Below are positions 5,384 through 64,000 of a stretch of 64,000 nucleotides of DNA, one piece after another. Within the stretch, counting starts at the first letter, position 1. Every line of letters starts with the position of its first letter. Source of the stretch: Siphonodentalium dalli. Its lineage: Eukaryota; Mollusca; Scaphopoda; Gadilida; Siphonodentaliidae. The notes below the pieces were generated by a model, which saw only the letters and a program-made list of their open reading frames with translations, made no database searches and was not told the DNA's origin. The DNA lies in NCBI GenBank assembly GCA_032622095.1, contig CP136061.1, positions 231,568,944 to 231,632,943 on the forward strand, written 5' to 3'. A program made the translations under genes and the position numbers.

Positions 5384-5478
5384 CTGGAATAAAATAAGAA
5401 CATTTTTGTGAACAGATAGGCATGTTTCTTATAAAAGTTACTATAAAAAGTAAAAAATACAACAAACCTTGAAATTAT

Positions 5479-9577: not shown

Positions 9578-9847
9578 TTAACTCTTTCATTACAGGAGCT
9601 GTACTAGTGCAGCATTATAATTTAAAGATCATCTGCCAGTACATTCTCTTATATATGCAAGTCTCCCAATGGGAGTCTCTCGTATATAAGAGAATACACT
9701 GGCTTACAAGGTCAAGGTAAATGTTGTTAGGCCAATGTATTCTCTTATATATGCGAGGCTCCCTATGGGAGACTTGAATATTTAAGAGAATACATTGGCA
9801 CAGGGTTTTCGCAAAATTTGAGGAAGCGGCAGTTACGGAAGGGTTAA
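9578..9847 (+). mobile_element. Family Q hairpin element, copy Q2
   Basis: TTAA at both ends. Two hairpins use the family A arm but with a CTCCCATAGGGAG-type loop instead of the CGACC loop, and the outer ends differ from A and S. Confidence 0.75.
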
Positions 9848-14870: not shown

Positions 14871-15113
14871 TTAACCCTTTGAGTGCCAGGGGCCGATATT
14901 ATCGGCCCTAAACCTACACAATAATTCTGTTAAAGAATATAATAAAATATATTAAAATTGTAAAAAATTGTAAAAAAAATAAAAAATTGTTAAGCCAATG
15001 CATTCTCTTATATATGCGAGGCGACCTATGGTCGACTCGCATATATAAGAGAATGCATTGGCACAGGGTATATGGGTTGATACAAAAATCGGACCTGGCA
15101 CTCAAAGGGTTAA
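14871..15113 (+). mobile_element. Family S TTAA single-hairpin element, copy S1
   Basis: TTAA-flanked, with ends CCCTTTGAGTGCCAGG and its complement. It has one hairpin made of the same arm as family A, plus a GGGCCGAT...ATCGGCCC subterminal palindrome. Confidence 0.8.
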
Positions 15114-50988: not shown

Positions 50989-51042
50989 CATAAGACCTGT
51001 ATATGGAGCTCAACATCCGCCATTAGAGACAATGCCTAAAAG
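50989..51042 (+). CDS. TBC1D22: TBC1D22-type Rab GAP, exon 2
   Basis: A 54-nt exon between a TTATTCAG acceptor and a GTAATA donor. It encodes IRPVYGAQHPPLETMPK plus two bases of an Arg codon. The PVYGAQHPP block is an almost invariant signature of TBC1D22A and TBC1D22B near residue 20-30, so even this tiny exon is diagnostic. It takes one base from exon 1's split Ser codon and leaves AG for exon 3. A 1.2-kb inverted-repeat element (N) begins about 95 bp downstream. Confidence 0.93.
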
Positions 51043-51136
51043 GTAATATTTAATACTGTTATGCTGTGGTACAGTGAATCGAGACCTGTGATTGAATTAA
51101 CATCCGTTTTACATATACATCTACACCATAATGAGT

Positions 51137-52311
51137 TAGTCCAAGTCTTCTCGTACTAAAACCGGCTAAGATATTGGGATGGAGGTGCCGGTTTTTAGTC
51201 CCGAGTTCCAGGCCCATGCATTCTTATGACACGACTTAAGCGTTAGTGACCCGCTCAAATAAAACCACAATTATATGAAATAAAATATCACAATTGCGAC
51301 AATAAACGGATATTTTCCACAGAAGACATGCTATTTTATCTGAAACCCACATCAGTTGTGAAATTAAAACGGTAATTTAATGCGAAATGAGACATTTACC
51401 TCAATGTTTACAATTTTTTTAAAGTATGCGAACTCGGTTGACCTCGCGAACTGTGTTCGGCATTTTCCGTTGAAAATATTCCGTAGATTTTGGACAACAA
51501 CGCAAATTACGATGAATTCTCCATTGTAATCGTAATTATGTGTGTCAATAAATAAAATAATAAATAGATTAATTAAACATTGGAGATATAAATGTAATAC
51601 ACTAAATAAATGAACCTTAAGTTTGAAAAGTCCCACTAAAACGGAAGAACTATATTTCGAAACTGTGTGATTCGGTTCTCCGATTATTTTATCAACACAG
51701 ATGTCAAAATGCACATCACACGCATGGCAACTTGGCAAGTCAGACACAAGAGTTCTAATTTGCTCCAATTTTGACAAGTTGCTTGCGAAAATTGTCAACA
51801 AAACTACCGTTCTGATCCTCCATTATGTCATTAAGTTTTTAGTGCGGGAATTGTTCTGAAAGCACATAGAAAACTGGACTTTCGGGCGATCGGTTTTCGC
51901 CATTTTTGTTCGGAAAACCTGCGCTATATATAGAAACGGAAAGTAGAATTCCCAGAACAAACAGCGGATTATGCCGAACTTATTCGGACCACTTCGGCTT
52001 TCGGTTAAAACGTAAACAAACAGAGAAACAAATCGATGTTTGTGTCAATCAACCGGAATATTCTATGTGTAATTTAACATTAAAGTTAGATTATTATACA
52101 CCATTATGACCATAAGATGTAAGCCTTTCCGATGTATATAGCATCATGTATTGATTTGCTAGGTAAATCGAGTAAAATACACCACAAATTCCCGCCACAG
52201 ATCGTGGGCGTAAGTTGTGTCATAGGATTGGTATACAAGCGGTCTTGGACTAAAGACCGGCACCTCCATCCCAATATCTTAGCCGGTTTTAGTACGAGAA
52301 GACTTGGACTA
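51137..52311. mobile_element. Element N, Mutator-like signature
   Basis: 1175 bp with about 65-bp inverted ends (TAGTCCAAGTCTTCTCGTAC...) nearly identical to each other, flanked by a perfect 10-bp duplication CATAATGAGT (51127-51136, 52312-52321). Long ends with 9-11-bp duplications are characteristic of Mutator-like elements. The interior 51655-51965 is homologous to the first 330 bp of the window. A 145-codon minus-strand frame (51364-51801) is unclassified. Confidence 0.85.
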
Positions 52312-52442
52312 CATAATGAGTATGATTTGGCAGTTTCAAAATTCTCAATTCCAAGAAAAATGGCAAAGAATAGAAGTAAAGTAGAGTGAATGGATCAAAG
52401 CATGTTATTTTCTGTATGTTCCACATGGCAGTGCGATACATG

Positions 52443-52876
52443 CAGGCCTCATAATATGGTGCCGGACAGAATTAGGTCCCCAGAGGGTGAATTTATTGAC
52501 GATACTCTGCACAGCAACCTAGCATCACTAAATTCACCTTCTGGGGACCTGATTCTGCTTAGGCCTCATCTTTGTAAAGTATCTGTATTATCAAATTAAC
52601 AAGTTTCATTCATATTCTTTTTTAGTTTAGTTTCTCTATATCCCCAAATTGGCAAACGACACAATGCATAATCGAGGTTCCCAATGGGTGCATATCACCA
52701 TCTGGGAATTTAAATCTGTGTCTAGGTCTCCCATAGCGGATGAGACCATGCAGAATGAGGTCCCCAGAGGATGAATTTGGTGATGCTAGCCCATTGTGTG
52801 GGTGGGGGATAGCATCACTAAATTCACCCTCTGGGGACCTCATTCTGCAAACGTCCGGCACCATATTTTGAGGCTT
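52443..52876. mobile_element. Family C element C7, variant ends
   Basis: Complete, but the termini read CAAAATATGGTGCCGGAC instead of the usual GTGTGTCTGTCATTTGC, so a distinct subfamily. It lies just after element N. Confidence 0.78.
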
Positions 52877-53481
52877 GGATACATGTACCGGTATGTGTTG
52901 TGAAGACGTAAACTATTACAGCAACTGACAATAGCAGTAGGGCCCAGCTAAGCATCGATATTTAATTTGATTCGTGAATCGGGATGCCTATTAATTTTTA
53001 TTTGATTTGACTCGATCATACAATATGATTATTTTCGAATCACCATATTTTTGACATTCTTGTGTACGAAAAAGAACACGAGGTTGAAGATATATTGTTC
53101 TACATATCAAATTAGCTAAATAGATCTATTAGAATAACACCTGAAATTAGCCCAAGCTGCTGCTTTTGCCTTGGTATATATTGATTTATACCTTACAGCG
53201 CACGACGTGACATTGAGGAAATAAACGGTGGTGTTGTTATGGCTCAATCACGCAAATATATGGGGTCGTTGGAAATATTGAAGATATTTAACAAATGCAA
53301 ACACATTGATTAATCCGAGATATGTACACAGCCCTTGAAATTAGCTATGGCTAAAAGCAATGCTGTAGAAAAAGCCTTATAAGCCAATATAGAATTTCAT
53401 GCATTTCTAAAGCAATGCCACAGAAGAAAAATGCTAATTTCAAGGGCTGTGTACAGCACAATGAGCACATGTAGGCATTCT

Positions 53482-53655
53482 TTAACCCTTTGATGACTGG
53501 AGCTTCATGAAATTTTACGAAAACCTTGTTCCAATGCATTCTCTTATATATGCGAGTTTCCCATAGGGCACCTCTCATATATAATAGAATGCATCGGCCT
53601 AACAATATTTCCTTGATCAGCCAGTGCATTCTCTTATATATGTGAGGCTCCCTAT
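53482..53655 (+). mobile_element. Family Q element Q4, truncated
   Basis: TTAA end, first hairpin and part of the second, then an abrupt junction near 53655 into a family C fragment. Confidence 0.65.
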
Positions 53656-54005
53656 GGAATATAGTGGACTAGCATCACCAAATTCACCCTCTGGGGACCT
53701 CATTCTGCTTAGGCCTCAACTGCTATGGGAGACATAGGATCAGATTGAAGTTCCCCAGTTGAAGTTGGTGATATTCACGTGTTATTCACCTTGTTTATGC
53801 AATTGATCTTCTGCAATTTAGGGGATATAGAAACTGACAAGGGAAAAAGTAACTAAAAACAATGTTAATTGAAGATGAGGCCCAGCAGAATGAGGTCTTC
53901 AGAGGGTGAATTTGGTGATGCTAGCCCACTTAGCGGGATAGCGTCACTAAATTCACCATCTGGGGACCTCAATCTGCAAATGTCAGACACACTAAATTCA
54001 GGCTT
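53655..54005 (-). mobile_element. Family C fragment C8 fused to Q4
   Basis: Starts inside the palindrome immediately after the Q4 break; the right palindrome and end AGGCTT are intact. Confidence 0.68.
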
Positions 54006-54283
54006 GACTGATTACACCTCACCAAAATCTGGATACATGTATGTCATGTCCTTTTTGGCAGAACATAAGAAACAAAATGTGTGTCTAGTTTGCTGAAGTA
54101 TATTTATTTGATGATTAACAAATACTAACTGTTTAGTGAGAAGTAGAAAGAAGAAATCATTTTGCTTGTCAAAACAAGGAGGTTATTTTGTCTCAGTTGT
54201 AGAAATAATATACATGTACAAGCACTAGGATGCGCCATGAAAACGGATAACCCCCTTCCACGACATGACTGATGACCAAACTG

Positions 54284-54682
54284 TTAACCCTTTACCCAAC
54301 AGAAGGGCCCTGTGCCAATGCATTCTCTTATATATGCGAGTCGACCATAGGTCGCCTCGCATATATAAGAGAATGCATTGGCTTAACACATTAAAAATTA
54401 TAAAATTGTTAAAGAATGTAAGAAAAAATGGTAAAAAGTGTTAAAAAAAGAATTTTTTAGGCCAATGCATTCTCTTATATATGCGAGGCGACCTATGGTC
54501 GACTCGCATATTTAAGATAATGCATTGGCACAGGGCATAACTGTAACTATCACAATGTGGTCAAGGAGCCGGTTCCAATGATATCCATATTTGTATGGTT
54601 CTATTGAGACAGACCGAAGATATTTTAGGCTGTTGAAGCTTTATTTGGCCGGTTTTGGCCGTTTTGTTGGGTAAAGGGTTAA
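54284..54682 (-). mobile_element. Family A element, copy A7, abutting TBC1D22 exon 3
   Basis: TTAA at 54284-54287 and 54679-54682. Its right end is only 12 nt from the first base of exon 3, so the branch point of intron 2 must lie inside the element. Confidence 0.9.
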
Positions 54683-54694
54683 TTTAAATTTCAG

Positions 54695-54930
54695 AGTTAA
54701 CATTATGAAGAGAGATGATAAACAAACAAGGCCATTTAAAAAGGATGCATTTGAGGCCTTTGAGAACAAAACACTGGATGCGTGGGATGACGGAGAGGAT
54801 GATCTTATCAATATGGCCAGCATTCAGATGTCACTTAAGGACGTAAGGTCCACAGCAAAAGCTGTTCTTGACAACCACAGCAAAGGCCTGCATGTCCAGA
54901 AGCAGAGAAATGATCTCGACAACACATCGA
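54695..54930 (+). CDS. TBC1D22: TBC1D22-type Rab GAP, exon 3
   Basis: A 236-nt exon after TTTAAATTTCAG, ending at a GTATGT donor. It encodes the linker before the TBC domain: VNIMKRDDKQTRPFKK, then FEAFENKTLDAWDDGEDDL, then a helical segment ending QRNDLDNTS. The FE.NT.DAWD.GEDD block is conserved in vertebrate TBC1D22 proteins. The first base completes Arg from exon 2, and the last base plus AC of exon 4 make Asn. Unusually, the exon is hemmed in by transposons: family A ends 12 nt before it and family E begins 18 nt after it. Confidence 0.94.
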
Positions 54931-54948
54931 GTATGTCTTAGTAATATA

Positions 54949-55207
54949 TTAACCATTTCTATCCCATTCAGTTATAAAAGTGTACATTGGAATGGTCTAT
55001 TAGTCATCTGGAGGGGGTTTCAGGAAAAATAAGCAGATGACAGATAATACAAGTACAGAAGGAGACTTGAGTCCTATTTATTGGAGGGAAATTGTTCAAA
55101 TAATAAGTTCAACAAATGACCTATCATCTGTGGAACTTATTATCTGAATATTTCCTGAGGGATAACTACTCATCAATGTGTATTTAGTATAGAAAGGCCA
55201 GGGTTAA
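54949..55207 (+). mobile_element. Family E element E2, 18 nt after TBC1D22 exon 3
   Basis: TTAA at 54949-54952 and 55204-55207; the AATAAGTTCAACAAATGA palindrome is intact. Confidence 0.7.
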
Positions 55208-56004
55208 GATTGTTTTCTTCATATAATGTGACATCATTAATAGTTAATTTTAGTTTAAAGATACTCTTATCACCTTCCGGGCAACAACAACACAAATTTT
55301 CATGAAACTCGTTTTGATGACAAATTTGCACCATTCTTCTCTAAAACACAAGAAACATCCGGTATTCCACATATTTCACTTAAAAGTGTCTTAACAGAGA
55401 GATTTTCAAGAAAGAAAAAAATTGTAATGTTCTACAACAGTAACAATTCCTGTCCCAGTTTATGGATAAAATTGAGAAAAATATTATTTCTTAGTGACAG
55501 AAGCTCTTGTCGACTGGTCTCGCTGACTAAAATTTATTATTTTATTCCCCTAAATCTATAGTACATGTAATTCTTTATAGTAAGTTCAAGGAAGAGATAC
55601 AACATATGTAAAGGGATTCTTGTATGGGATAGTTAACGACATATTTTTGACTTGTTCGAGCGCACTGTGCCAACCAGGGGAATATAGAATTCTACTAACA
55701 TCGCCTAAAATTTCAAAGAACTTGACCATACCACTCCATATGAAAATGCTCAATTGTAAATATCTACATCTCGATTCGGGACGCAACTATCGGCGATAAA
55801 CTAACACAAATCATTTCGACATCGATAGTCATTGCATTTAATTAATATATAAGAATGGCATTGTGTTTTGTCAATTTGAATCAATATTCATAAAAATTAC
55901 AACTTTGAGCAAGATTATGCTCCATTTCTATTTGGTCACCCTAGGTACCGGAGTGTTTCACATCACTTTAACCAGTTTGATCACAACCGTTGACATTACC
56001 AGGA
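55208..56004. other. TBC1D22 intron 3, no gene recognised
   Basis: AT-rich unique sequence; no conserved exon or repeat family identified. Confidence 0.5.
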
Positions 56005-56735: not shown

Positions 56736-56974
56736 TTAACCCTTTGAGTGCCAGGTCCGATTTTTGTATCAACCCATATACCCTGTGCCAATGCATTCTC
56801 TTATATATGCGAGTCGACCATAGGTCGCCTCGCATATATAAGAGAATGCATTGGCCTAACATTTTTTTTTTTACAATTTTTTACAATTTTAATAATTTAT
56901 TCTTATATTCTTTAACAGACTTATTTTGTAGGTTTAGGGCCGATGAGATCAGCCCCTGGCACTCAAAGGGTTAA
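56736..56974 (-). mobile_element. Family S element, copy S2
   Basis: Same ends and single hairpin as S1, reversed orientation, TTAA at both ends. In TBC1D22 intron 3. Confidence 0.8.
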
Positions 56975-57549
56975 AATGGTCTATTATTCATTTTATAGGG
57001 TGTTTTGAAAAAAGCTCAGAAGAGTAGAAATAGAATTCCTATTTGGAGCGTATTTTCAGATAAATTTCAATAAGTTTCTATTCATGTAGCGAATGTCTTG
57101 AGGGCCTTTAAAGCACACATGTATAATTGTTTGATTTAATGTACATTATACAATTTATAGTTTTATACTGCGTATTGGAATCAATCGTCTGCATGGGAGA
57201 GTATTCTGTAACAGCTGTTACTGCTGTAATGTCTCATATATTCCCTATTTTATGATGCTTGAGTGCTATAGGCTAATGTGATTCAGAAGAGTGTTACGAA
57301 TGTTCTTAGTTCATGATTTGCATAAGCTTGTCAAGATTATGTTTGAATTGTGAATTTATTATTTACCAGATGGAATTATTATTCATGCCTGCTTAATTTC
57401 TTACACTTATGTTAACCCAGTATCAGCTAGGCTTAAATGCTCTGACTGTATTATACTTTGTTAGGCCAGATATTCTACTCCGGGAACAACCCACCTTGAA
57501 TACAGATCTGAGCACCTCACATCATGGTGATAACCCATATGTATCATCC

Positions 57550-58000
57550 AAGCCTGTATTTAGTGTGTCTGACATTTGCTGAATGAGGTCCCCAGAGGGG
57601 GAATTTAGTGATGCTATCGCAGATAATGGGCTAGCATCACCAAATTCAACCTCTGAGGACCTCATTCTGCTTAGGCCTCAAAGTTCTGCTAGGATCAGAC
57701 CTAGACCTAGGATCAGATTGAAGTTCCCCAGTTGAAGTTGGTGATGTTCACCCATTAGTCACCTCGATTATGCAATTTATCTTCTGCAAATTAGGGGATA
57801 TAGAAACTGAACAGAAAAGAAAAAGTAACTAAAAACAATGTTAGTATGAGACTATAGATACTTCCCATAAGATGAGACAGCAGAATGAGGTCCCCAGAGG
57901 GTAAATTTGGTTATGCAAGCCCGCTGTGCATGGTAGCATCACTATATTCACCCTCTGTGGACCTCATTCTGCAAATGACAGATACACTAAATTCAGGCTT
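57550..58000. mobile_element. Family C element C9, 39 nt before TBC1D22 exon 4
   Basis: Full-length 451-bp copy with AAGCCT/AGGCTT ends and both palindromes. Confidence 0.82.
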
Positions 58001-58039
58001 GAGTATTGAGCCTTATATTTGATATTTTGTGTTTTTCAG

Positions 58040-58222
58040 ACTCCCTGTCCCGGCCGGTGTCTAACTCTCATGCCACTGGTCCTGGTGTCGGTGTCCGGTT
58101 AAATAAATCATGGAAACCGCCCAAAACTACTGCAATACGATTCACAAAGCCTTCCATATCAGACAGAGATCAGGTTAAATTTGAAAAGATGAAAGCTGTG
58201 TTGCAGGGTCCAACAGATATAG
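58040..58222 (+). CDS. TBC1D22: TBC1D22-type Rab GAP, exon 4
   Basis: A 183-nt exon after GTGTTTTTCAG, ending ATAG before a GTATCT donor. It encodes a Ser/Pro-rich linker (SLSRPVSNSHATGPG) followed by a helical stretch SDRDQVKFEKMKAVLQGPTDI, equivalent to the REKTRLEKFRQLL..NTDL segment that leads into the TBC domain of vertebrate TBC1D22. Phases are 1 in and 1 out and match both neighbours. A family C element ends 39 nt upstream and a family Q element begins 25 nt downstream. Confidence 0.92.
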
Positions 58223-58247
58223 GTATCTATCAACTCACATAGCTCAT

Positions 58248-58492
58248 TTAACCCTTTAATGACGGGAACTGTGCTCGTGCAGCAGTAAAGATCCTGTGCC
58301 AGTGCATTCTCTTATATAAATGCGAAATATAAGAGAATTCACTGTCTCACAAGGTCAAGGTAAATATTGTTAGGCCAATGCACTCTCCGATATTTGTGAG
58401 GCTCCCTATGGGAGACTCGCATATATAAGAGAATGCATTGGCACAGTGTTTTCTCAAAATTTCAGTAATAAGCTCCAGTCATGAATGGTTGA
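58248..58492 (+). mobile_element. Family Q element Q5, 25 nt after TBC1D22 exon 4
   Basis: Starts at TTAA 58248-58251 and ends at a mutated TTGA (58489-58492). The first hairpin has lost its loop. Confidence 0.7.
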
Positions 58493-59116: not shown

Positions 59117-59187
59117 AGGAGTTAAAAAAGTTAGCTTGGTCTGGAACTCCAAGATGCTTGAGACCGACAACATGGAAAATACTCTCG
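59117..59187 (+). CDS. TBC1D22: TBC1D22-type Rab GAP, exon 5 (TBC motif A)
   Basis: A 71-nt exon between TGTTTTCAG and GTGAGT. With the G carried over from exon 4 it encodes EELKKLAWSGTPRCLRPTTW followed by KILS. This is the opening motif of the TBC domain (L..W.G.P...RP..W..L), which in TBC1D22A/B reads DLDELRKLSWSGIPKPVRPMTWKLLSG. It is phase 0 at its 3' end and joins exon 6 GYLPA exactly. Reading the block in another frame gives an unrelated open frame, so the splice phase decides the translation. Confidence 0.95.
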
Positions 59188-59214: not shown

Positions 59215-59258
59215 TCACCAGTGTATATCCTTGTTTGTGTCCCAACTGGCTTTACTTC
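59215..59258 (+). repeat. 44-bp direct repeat, left copy
   Basis: Identical to 59531-59574 (begins TCACCAGTGTATATCC, ends TTTACTTC); the two copies bracket C10. Confidence 0.9.
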
Positions 59259-59259
59259 C

Positions 59260-59511
59260 AAGCCTTGAAATAGGGTGTTTGTCATTTGCAGAATGAGGTC
59301 CCCAGAGGGTGAATTTAGTGATGCTACCCCGCATAGCGGGCTAGCATCACCAAATTCACCCTCTGGGGACCTCATTCTGCTTACACCTCAGCAGAATGAG
59401 GTTCCCAGAGGGTGAATTTGGTGATGCTAGCCCGCTATGCGGGGTAGCATCACTAAATTCACCCTCTGGGGACCTCATTCTGCAAATCACAGACACACTA
59501 TTTCAAGGCTT
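59260..59511. mobile_element. Family C minimal palindrome C10
   Basis: 252 bp: both subterminal palindromes joined with no interior. Flanked by 44-bp direct repeats of non-element sequence. It begins about 72 bp after TBC1D22 exon 5. Confidence 0.83.
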
Positions 59512-59530
59512 GTTGAGGTTACTACAGATA

Positions 59531-61155: not shown

Positions 61156-61281
61156 GGTTACCTCCCTGCCAGTGTAGACAGGAGAGAGCAGACGTTGGAA
61201 AGAAAGCGAAATGAATACTTCAGTTTTGTAGACCAGTACTATGACACGCGGCATGGTATGCATGAAGAAACATTTAGACAG
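61156..61281 (+). CDS. TBC1D22: TBC1D22-type Rab GAP, exon 6 (N-terminal TBC domain)
   Basis: A 126-nt, phase-0 exon between CTGTATTTAG and GTATGA. It encodes GYLPASVDRREQTLERKRNE, then YFSFVDQYYDTRHGMHEETFRQ. This matches the GYLPA..(D/E)RR..TLQRK..EYF.FIEQYYDSRN...H.DTYRQ block of TBC1D22A/B. The catalytic Arg-finger and Gln-finger motifs of the Rab GAP lie further C-terminal; the next expected exon (starting IHIDIPR) was not seen before 64000. Family members act at Golgi membranes on Rab GTPases; that role is inherited from the family and not shown here. Confidence 0.97.
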
Positions 61282-61397: not shown

Positions 61398-61850
61398 TTA
61401 ACCCTTTCAGTGCCAGGTCCGATTTTTGTATCAACCCCATATATCCTGTGCCAATGCATTCTCTTATATATGCGAGTCAACCATAGGTCGCCTTGCATAT
61501 ATAAGAGAATGCATTGGCCCAACAATTTTTCATCATTTGTTATTATTTTTTACAATTTTAATAATTTTTTCTTATATTCTTTAACAGACTTATTTTGTAG
61601 GTTTAGTGCCAGGGAATCTTACGTTTTTCATGGGCATCAAAATTATTACTATGAATACTTGGTGATAGTTTTGAGTTATAACATGCCCCTAAGGTTTTAT
61701 CCAGTTTGTTTTTTTGTTAAGCATACCCAAAAAAAATTCAACCCAAAAAAATATAAAACAATATTAAATGTTTTTTTTTTTTTTTAGGTACAATTTTACA
61801 GACCGTAAATTAGGGCCGATGAGATCGGCCCTTGGCACTGAAAGGGTTAA
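61398..61850 (-). mobile_element. Family S element, copy S3, enlarged
   Basis: TTAA-flanked family S copy, 453 bp instead of about 240 bp. Roughly 200 bp of unrelated AT-rich sequence (about 61620-61800) interrupts the right end. It lies about 120 bp after TBC1D22 exon 6. Confidence 0.72.
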
Positions 61851-62307: not shown

Positions 62308-62564
62308 CTTTTACATGACTGGAGCTTCCTGAAATTTTTCGAAAATCCTGTGCCAATGCATTCTCTTATATATGCGAGTCTCCCATATGGAGCCTCACAT
62401 ATATAAGAGAATACATTGCCCTAACAATATTTACATTGGCCTTGTAAGCCAGTTCATTCATTTAAATATGCAAGGATATGGGAGACTCGCATATATTTAA
62501 GAGAATGCACTGGCACATGATCTTTATTGCTGCACCAGTGCAACTCCCTTCAAGAAAGGGTTAA
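62308..62564 (+). mobile_element. Family Q element Q7
   Basis: Left end CATGACTGGAGCTTCC, two diverged hairpins, right end GGGTTAA. In TBC1D22 intron 6. Confidence 0.65.
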
Positions 62565-63829: not shown

Positions 63830-64000
63830 GCCTTTCATGACTGGAGATTCCTGAATTTTTCCAAAAACCCTGTGCCAATGCATTCACTTATATATGCGAG
63901 TCTCCCATAGGGAGCCTCACATATATAAGAGAATACTTTGGCCTAACAATATTTACCGTGCCATTGTAAGACAGTGCATTCTCTTATAAATGCGAGGCTC
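63826..64000 (+). mobile_element. Family Q element Q8, cut by window end
   Basis: Begins at the TTAA shared with A9. One hairpin is complete and the second is cut at 64000. Confidence 0.7.

Follow-up and report, generated by a model that had tools for sequence, protein, structure and literature searches.

How does the third exon of a TBC1D22 gene find its acceptor when a transposon ends 12 nt upstream of it? The exon lies in a stretch of 64 kb (the window, meaning the whole stretch of DNA that was analysed) in which it has a MITE on either side. An earlier note on this DNA had described it as boxed in by TTAA elements at 12 and 18 nt, and this description stands: the upstream element, A7, ends at 54682, 12 nt before the exon, and the downstream element, E2, begins 18 nt after it, at a position of 54949 that we place from its degenerate end. 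The note had offered two readings, that the elements landed beside existing sites or that they supply the splicing signals; at the acceptor both fit, while the donor needs nothing from E2.

The TBC1D22 gene and exon 3

Five consecutive TBC1D22 exons lie on the + strand of the 64-kb window. They have AG/GT at their borders and make a single open frame once joined.

50989-51042, + strand: TBC1D22 exon 2
54695-54930, + strand: TBC1D22 coding exon 3, 236 nt, from its open frame and its alignment with TBC1D22B
58040-58222, + strand: TBC1D22 exon 4
59117-59187, + strand: TBC1D22 exon 5
61156-61281, + strand: TBC1D22 exon 6
51043-54694, + strand: intron 2, upstream of exon 3, of which A7 covers 399 nt

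Among solved structures, the joined product matches TBC1D22A (2qfz, E 3.3e-28) and TBC1D22B (6d0s, E 2.6e-25) best, with Gyp1 next at E 1.2e-10 and 8 distinct sequences in all at E up to 1; the matches span residues 137-223, that is, exons 4-6. Exon 3 is 35% identical to human TBC1D22B (E 1e-5). When exon 3 was searched against the PDB together with part of exon 4, in a query whose join omitted another part of exon 4, there were no matches, and the 223-residue partial protein, most of whose TBC domain was not found in the window, gave no Pfam family at E up to 1. A regular-expression search of the window for exon 1 returned five candidates, none convincing. Going by sequence, the gene is presumably an animal TBC1D22. 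The joined reading frame also bears out the earlier statement that this exon is 236 nt long and breaks the frame when skipped.

The element upstream of exon 3

Family A has nine near-full copies in the 64 kb, which differ from the family consensus by 0.25-4.25%. A7 carries four substitutions in 399 positions of the nine-copy alignment (1.0%) and, on this evidence, is a young element. The left end of the family reads TTAACCCTTTACCC in seven of the nine copies (A1 and A3 each have one altered base, that of A3 within the TTAA), the right end reads GGGTAAAGGGTTAA in all nine, and TTAA is present at 17 of the 18 ends, A3 having TCAA at one end. The termini are CCC...GGG, with TCC in A1 as the exception. 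Because the ends are conserved and the flanks do not align between copies, the right edge of A7 can be placed exactly at 54682.

54284-54682, + strand: MITE A7, TTAA to TTAA, 399 nt, terminal inverted repeats TTAACCCTTTACCCAACA.../...TGTTGGGTAAAGGGTTAA, from the nine-copy alignment
54683-54694, + strand: native remnant TTTAAATTTCAG with the acceptor, read from the sequence

The element edges indicate a target duplication of which 54679-54682 is the TTAA copy, and therefore 16 native intron bases, not 12, precede exon 3. The earlier note had allowed only TTTAAATTTCAG as native acceptor sequence; these 12 nt are indeed native, and it is the word "only" that falls.

Copies A7 and A9 both have a G-to-T change at 54662, near the right end, which lengthens a run of T and may be a subfamily mark. 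All nine A elements carry two copies of a palindromic unit (CCAATGCATTCTCTTATATATGCGAG...), which is shared by other repeats, partly bounded by TTAA; a 27-base piece of this palindrome had no exact match in viral contigs.

54314-54382, 54461-54529, 9634-9805, 14988-15068, 53524-53657: palindromic unit CCAATGCATTCTCTTATATATGCGAG...
56781-56861, 61445-61524, 62347-62517, 63868-63998: further sites of the same unit

The perfect terminal decamers TTAACCCTTT/AAAGGGTTAA occur 29 times against a mean of 0.5 expected from 10 first-order Markov controls, and 49 times against 5.5 when one mismatch is allowed. Boundary positions numbered 50 (49 ends and the right end of E2); setting aside the 8 that fell inside A copies gives 42. 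With these 42 boundaries and the five exons, 0.03% of circular shifts leave an exon with boundaries no farther off than 12 and 18 nt on its two sides, a figure that is descriptive, as exon 3 was chosen for its proximity to elements. Three of the ten splice sites have a boundary at most 25 nt away on the intron side (12, 18 and 25 nt) where 0.17 would be expected, and 0.19% of circular shifts reach three; the 25-nt limit was set after the distances were seen, and the shift figures are post hoc. Insertion bias towards genes, or the selection of exon 3, could be the source of these figures.

The introns of the gene hold other repeats. A TTAA MITE end at 58248 lies 25 nt past the exon 4 donor (58223-58251), and its relatives at 5477, 9576 and 62565 are diverged (71-78% identity). 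A 65-bp inverted repeat, 98.5% identical between 51137-51201 and 52247-52311, bounds about 1.17 kb of intron 2 and is possibly another young foldback element. An abundant, partly palindromic repeat family is found at 52467-52880, 53661-54010, 57546-58002 and 59257-59512, one copy ending 37 nt before exon 4, and again near 6.8, 13.8, 17.8, 20.3 and 22.9 kb.

The donor side of exon 3

The exon 3 donor retains GTATGT and 12 more native bases ahead of E2, 18 in all.

54931-54948, + strand: native donor side GTATGTCTTAGTAATATA, read from the sequence
54949-55207, + strand: MITE E2, an older TTAA element with a damaged 5' inverted repeat, from BLAST pieces and its ends

Eighteen native bases exceed the needs of a donor, and a dependence of the donor on E2 was rejected since they remain. 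BLAST similarity of E2 to other E copies begins at 54962 or later and amounts to 70-92% identity, which makes E2 the older element; we infer the exact edge at 54949 from a degenerate end (TTAACCATTTCTAT) and its GGGTTAA partner ending at 55207. E2 is a bystander and does no harm to the donor.

The acceptor before and after insertion

Joining the flanks of A7 gives a predicted old acceptor, ...GACTGATGACCAAACTGTTAATTTAAATTTCAG, and the predicted empty-site allele reads CCAAACTGTTAATTTAAATTTCAG. The signals discussed below are as follows.

54269-54273, + strand: CTGAT, candidate for the native branch site (A at 54272), by consensus match only
54639-54644, + strand: CTTTAT, candidate branch site within the MITE (A at 54643, -51), yTnAy with 3/6 U2 pairs
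54672-54674, + strand: TAA, the last in-frame stop upstream of exon 3, which bars acceptors further upstream
54675-54676, + strand: AG of AAAG in the MITE end, a possible in-frame acceptor 18 nt upstream, adding six residues (VNLNFR)
54679-54683, + strand: branch-like TTAAT at the junction of MITE and native sequence, A at 54682 (-12)

The predicted empty site has CTGAT at -27 (5/6 U2 pairs), TGATGAC at -24 (5 pairs) and TTAAT at -12 (6 pairs), and is free of AG for 71 nt; the AG-free zone of the present site is 18 nt, against 56, 29, 50 and 29 nt at the acceptors of exons 2, 4, 5 and 6. Insertion of A7 shifts CTGAT from -27 to -422. Within the present AG-free zone, TTAAT at -12 (5 pairs) is the only yTnAy motif. 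Further out, CTTTAT at -51 has one AG (AAG) between itself and the CAG, and TGTTGAA at -58 (5 pairs) has two. In human predictions about 96% of the top-scoring branch points fall between -15 and -55 inside the AG exclusion zone, and any AG beyond the 12 nt that adjoin the acceptor is regarded as a probable splice site in its own right (PMC2991248). The present acceptor departs from the human -15 to -55 pattern, whereas the predicted old site fits it.

Pair counts with U2 and the yTnAy motif are rules of thumb rather than a trained branch-point model. At least five U2 pairs are found for 5.2% of all A in the window, so a motif like CTGAT is common by chance. At exon 6, where the 300 nt upstream of the acceptor contain no MITE boundary, the only candidate free of an intervening AG is likewise a near one, at -13 with 4 pairs; near branch points (-12 to -13) may therefore be ordinary here. 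It follows that CTGAT may never have been needed, or may not be the native branch point. Between -20 and -4 the present site has 8 pyrimidines in 17, the predicted empty site 10 in 17 (read by eye), and the other four acceptors 11-13. The predicted empty site is thus weak in pyrimidines too, which undercuts the earlier argument that most of the polypyrimidine tract must come from the MITE.

The last five in-frame stops upstream of exon 3, at 54384, 54432, 54513, 54579 and 54672, leave the AAG at 54676 and the CAG at 54694 as frame-keeping acceptors, and an exonised acceptor further upstream was rejected on the same grounds. CAG is the better acceptor motif than AAG. The VNLNFR extension is partly encoded by the MITE end.

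A proposed mechanism for the acceptor

The DNA directly establishes an element with its edges and near-consensus state, a conserved coding exon in a five-exon open frame, and a loss of AG-free spacing. From here we suggest that a MITE of piggyBac type, from a young family, went into a TTAA within the acceptor region of the TBC1D22 intron, that it landed beside an AG that already existed, since the exon codes for conserved sequence and A7 is young, and that its landing point probably lay between the branch point and the AG. CTGAT would be the native branch point, as a candidate; motifs like it are frequent by chance (the 5.2% above), which counts against this placement. It is plausible that at this acceptor a transposon has parted a branch point from its AG, and since A7 fell between a plausible CTGAT and the AG, other or re-approached signals may be needed.

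Of the routes that would keep the acceptor functional, we put forward, tentatively and without regarding it as probable, one that works mainly through upstream signals carried by the MITE: CTTTAT (A at 54643) or a similar branch point, with the U/G-rich end of the element, would feed either the native CAG at 54694 or the in-frame AAG at 54676 of the MITE. If either can be used, two isoforms six residues apart are expected. This MITE-borne branching was given less weight because exon 6 too shows only a near candidate; in addition, CTTTAT pairs weakly with U2 (3/6), AAG lies between it and the CAG, and the stem predicted below buries both AAG and TTAAT.

Predicted folding of the inverted repeats

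The ends of A7 are predicted to pair in a 22-bp terminal stem.

54283-54304, + strand: left arm of the predicted 22-bp terminal stem
54662-54683, + strand: right arm of the predicted 22-bp terminal stem

In each of three sequence contexts the mean pair probability is 0.99 over 20 of the 22 pairs. The predicted path from the native branch A to the AG has a median of 3, 3 and 14 steps in the three contexts against 422 along the line (ranges 3-4, 3-25 and 12-25; 60 sampled structures per context), and 54255-54700 folds with a z of -17.45 against 100 shuffles. Points 12 nt outside each end are 3-24 steps apart in the nine A copies and 18-133.5 steps in 25 random stretches, which were kept clear of A copies only and not of other repeats; the predicted fold is a trait of family A, and the two ranges overlap. 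The stem buries AAG (unpaired probability 0.00) together with TTAAT. All of this folding is of naked RNA.

These predictions allow a near-silent insertion, in which the inverted repeats would pair in the pre-mRNA, A7 would be looped out with its terminal AG hidden, and CTGAT would again stand beside the CAG. The stem, the short paths and the z score speak for it, and there is precedent in fission yeast for structures that bridge branch point and acceptor (PMC9508853). We nevertheless consider it somewhat unlikely. Weak pairs that span the branch region and the acceptor itself account in part for the path of 3. Within the CAG, C and A have pairing of 84-95% across the three contexts, the largest context (53700-55250) leaves the native branch A fully paired, and more AGs lie inside A7. 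Any element with such inverted repeats folds alike, so that folding alone is no evidence of use, and in a human MAP3K7 reporter cryptic acceptor use had no overall correlation with structural similarity (PMC13228592). The wider idea, that inverted repeats are a built-in splice camouflage by which a folded MITE between branch point and AG hides its terminal AG and leaves the old branch point functionally adjacent, is unlikely to hold; if true, it would explain how dense MITE populations are tolerated at positions that are harmful by linear rules.

TTAAT itself (A at 54682, -12), made of the TTAA target site and the next native base, might instead serve the CAG both before and after insertion. 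It is the sole yTnAy in the present AG-free zone, with 5/6 U2 pairs now and 6/6 in the predicted empty site, and exon 6 likewise has only a near candidate at -13. We think this unlikely, however, as about 96% of predicted human branch points lie no closer to the AG than -15 (PMC2991248), which leaves -12 too near, and the motif is buried in the predicted stem. Together, TTAAT in the predicted empty site and a terminal stem able in principle to draw the native site near make the earlier statement that the branch point must come from the MITE too strong.

It is equally doubtful that the insertion weakens exon 3 inclusion and that the assembly sampled a defective or segregating haplotype. The exon 3 acceptor is the lowest of the five in pyrimidines (8/17 against 11-13 at -20 to -4), the copy is young and skipping would break the frame; on the other hand, the five exons that lie in the window are open and in frame. 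That exon 3 was born of transposons, or dependent on them in origin, is scarcely credible and was rejected: proximity is the one argument for it, the exon is conserved TBC1D22 coding sequence, and A7 is young.

An inverted-repeat element that apparently comes between a branch point and its AG offers a clean natural comparison of linear scanning with structural proximity in the choice of acceptor. The predictions here are either a pair of isoforms that differ by six residues or a lariat with its branch at 54272.

Comparison with known systems

Family A fits a piggyBac-type MITE by its sequence, with putative mobilisation by a piggyBac transposase. The piggyBac elements have CCC...GGG ends, and family A resembles piggyBac-type MITEs in its TTAA on both sides, its CCC/GGG inverted repeats, its length of about 400 nt, too short for a transposase, and its several near-identical copies. 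Kolobok was rejected for family A, because Kolobok ends follow a 5'-RR...YY-3' rule (PMC9587614) and the CCC...GGG ends fail it.

Among the matches listed, titles and the beginnings of abstracts contained no published case of a branch point split or looped out by a transposon, and those of the literature on TTAA MITEs in bivalves held no branch-point-splitting case. Introners, transposons that create introns (PMC9860276), are alike in being mobile elements that act on splicing. They differ in that an introner is itself the intron, with splice sites at its ends, whereas here the intron (51043-54694, A7 making up only 399 nt of it) and the exon are older and A7 splits an existing acceptor region. 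Closest to the looped-out alternative are the structure-bridged pairs of branch point and acceptor in PMC9508853, where, as would be the case here, intron structure shortens the effective distance from branch point to AG; the structure in A7 differs in being built from transposon inverted repeats, and its bridging is a prediction.
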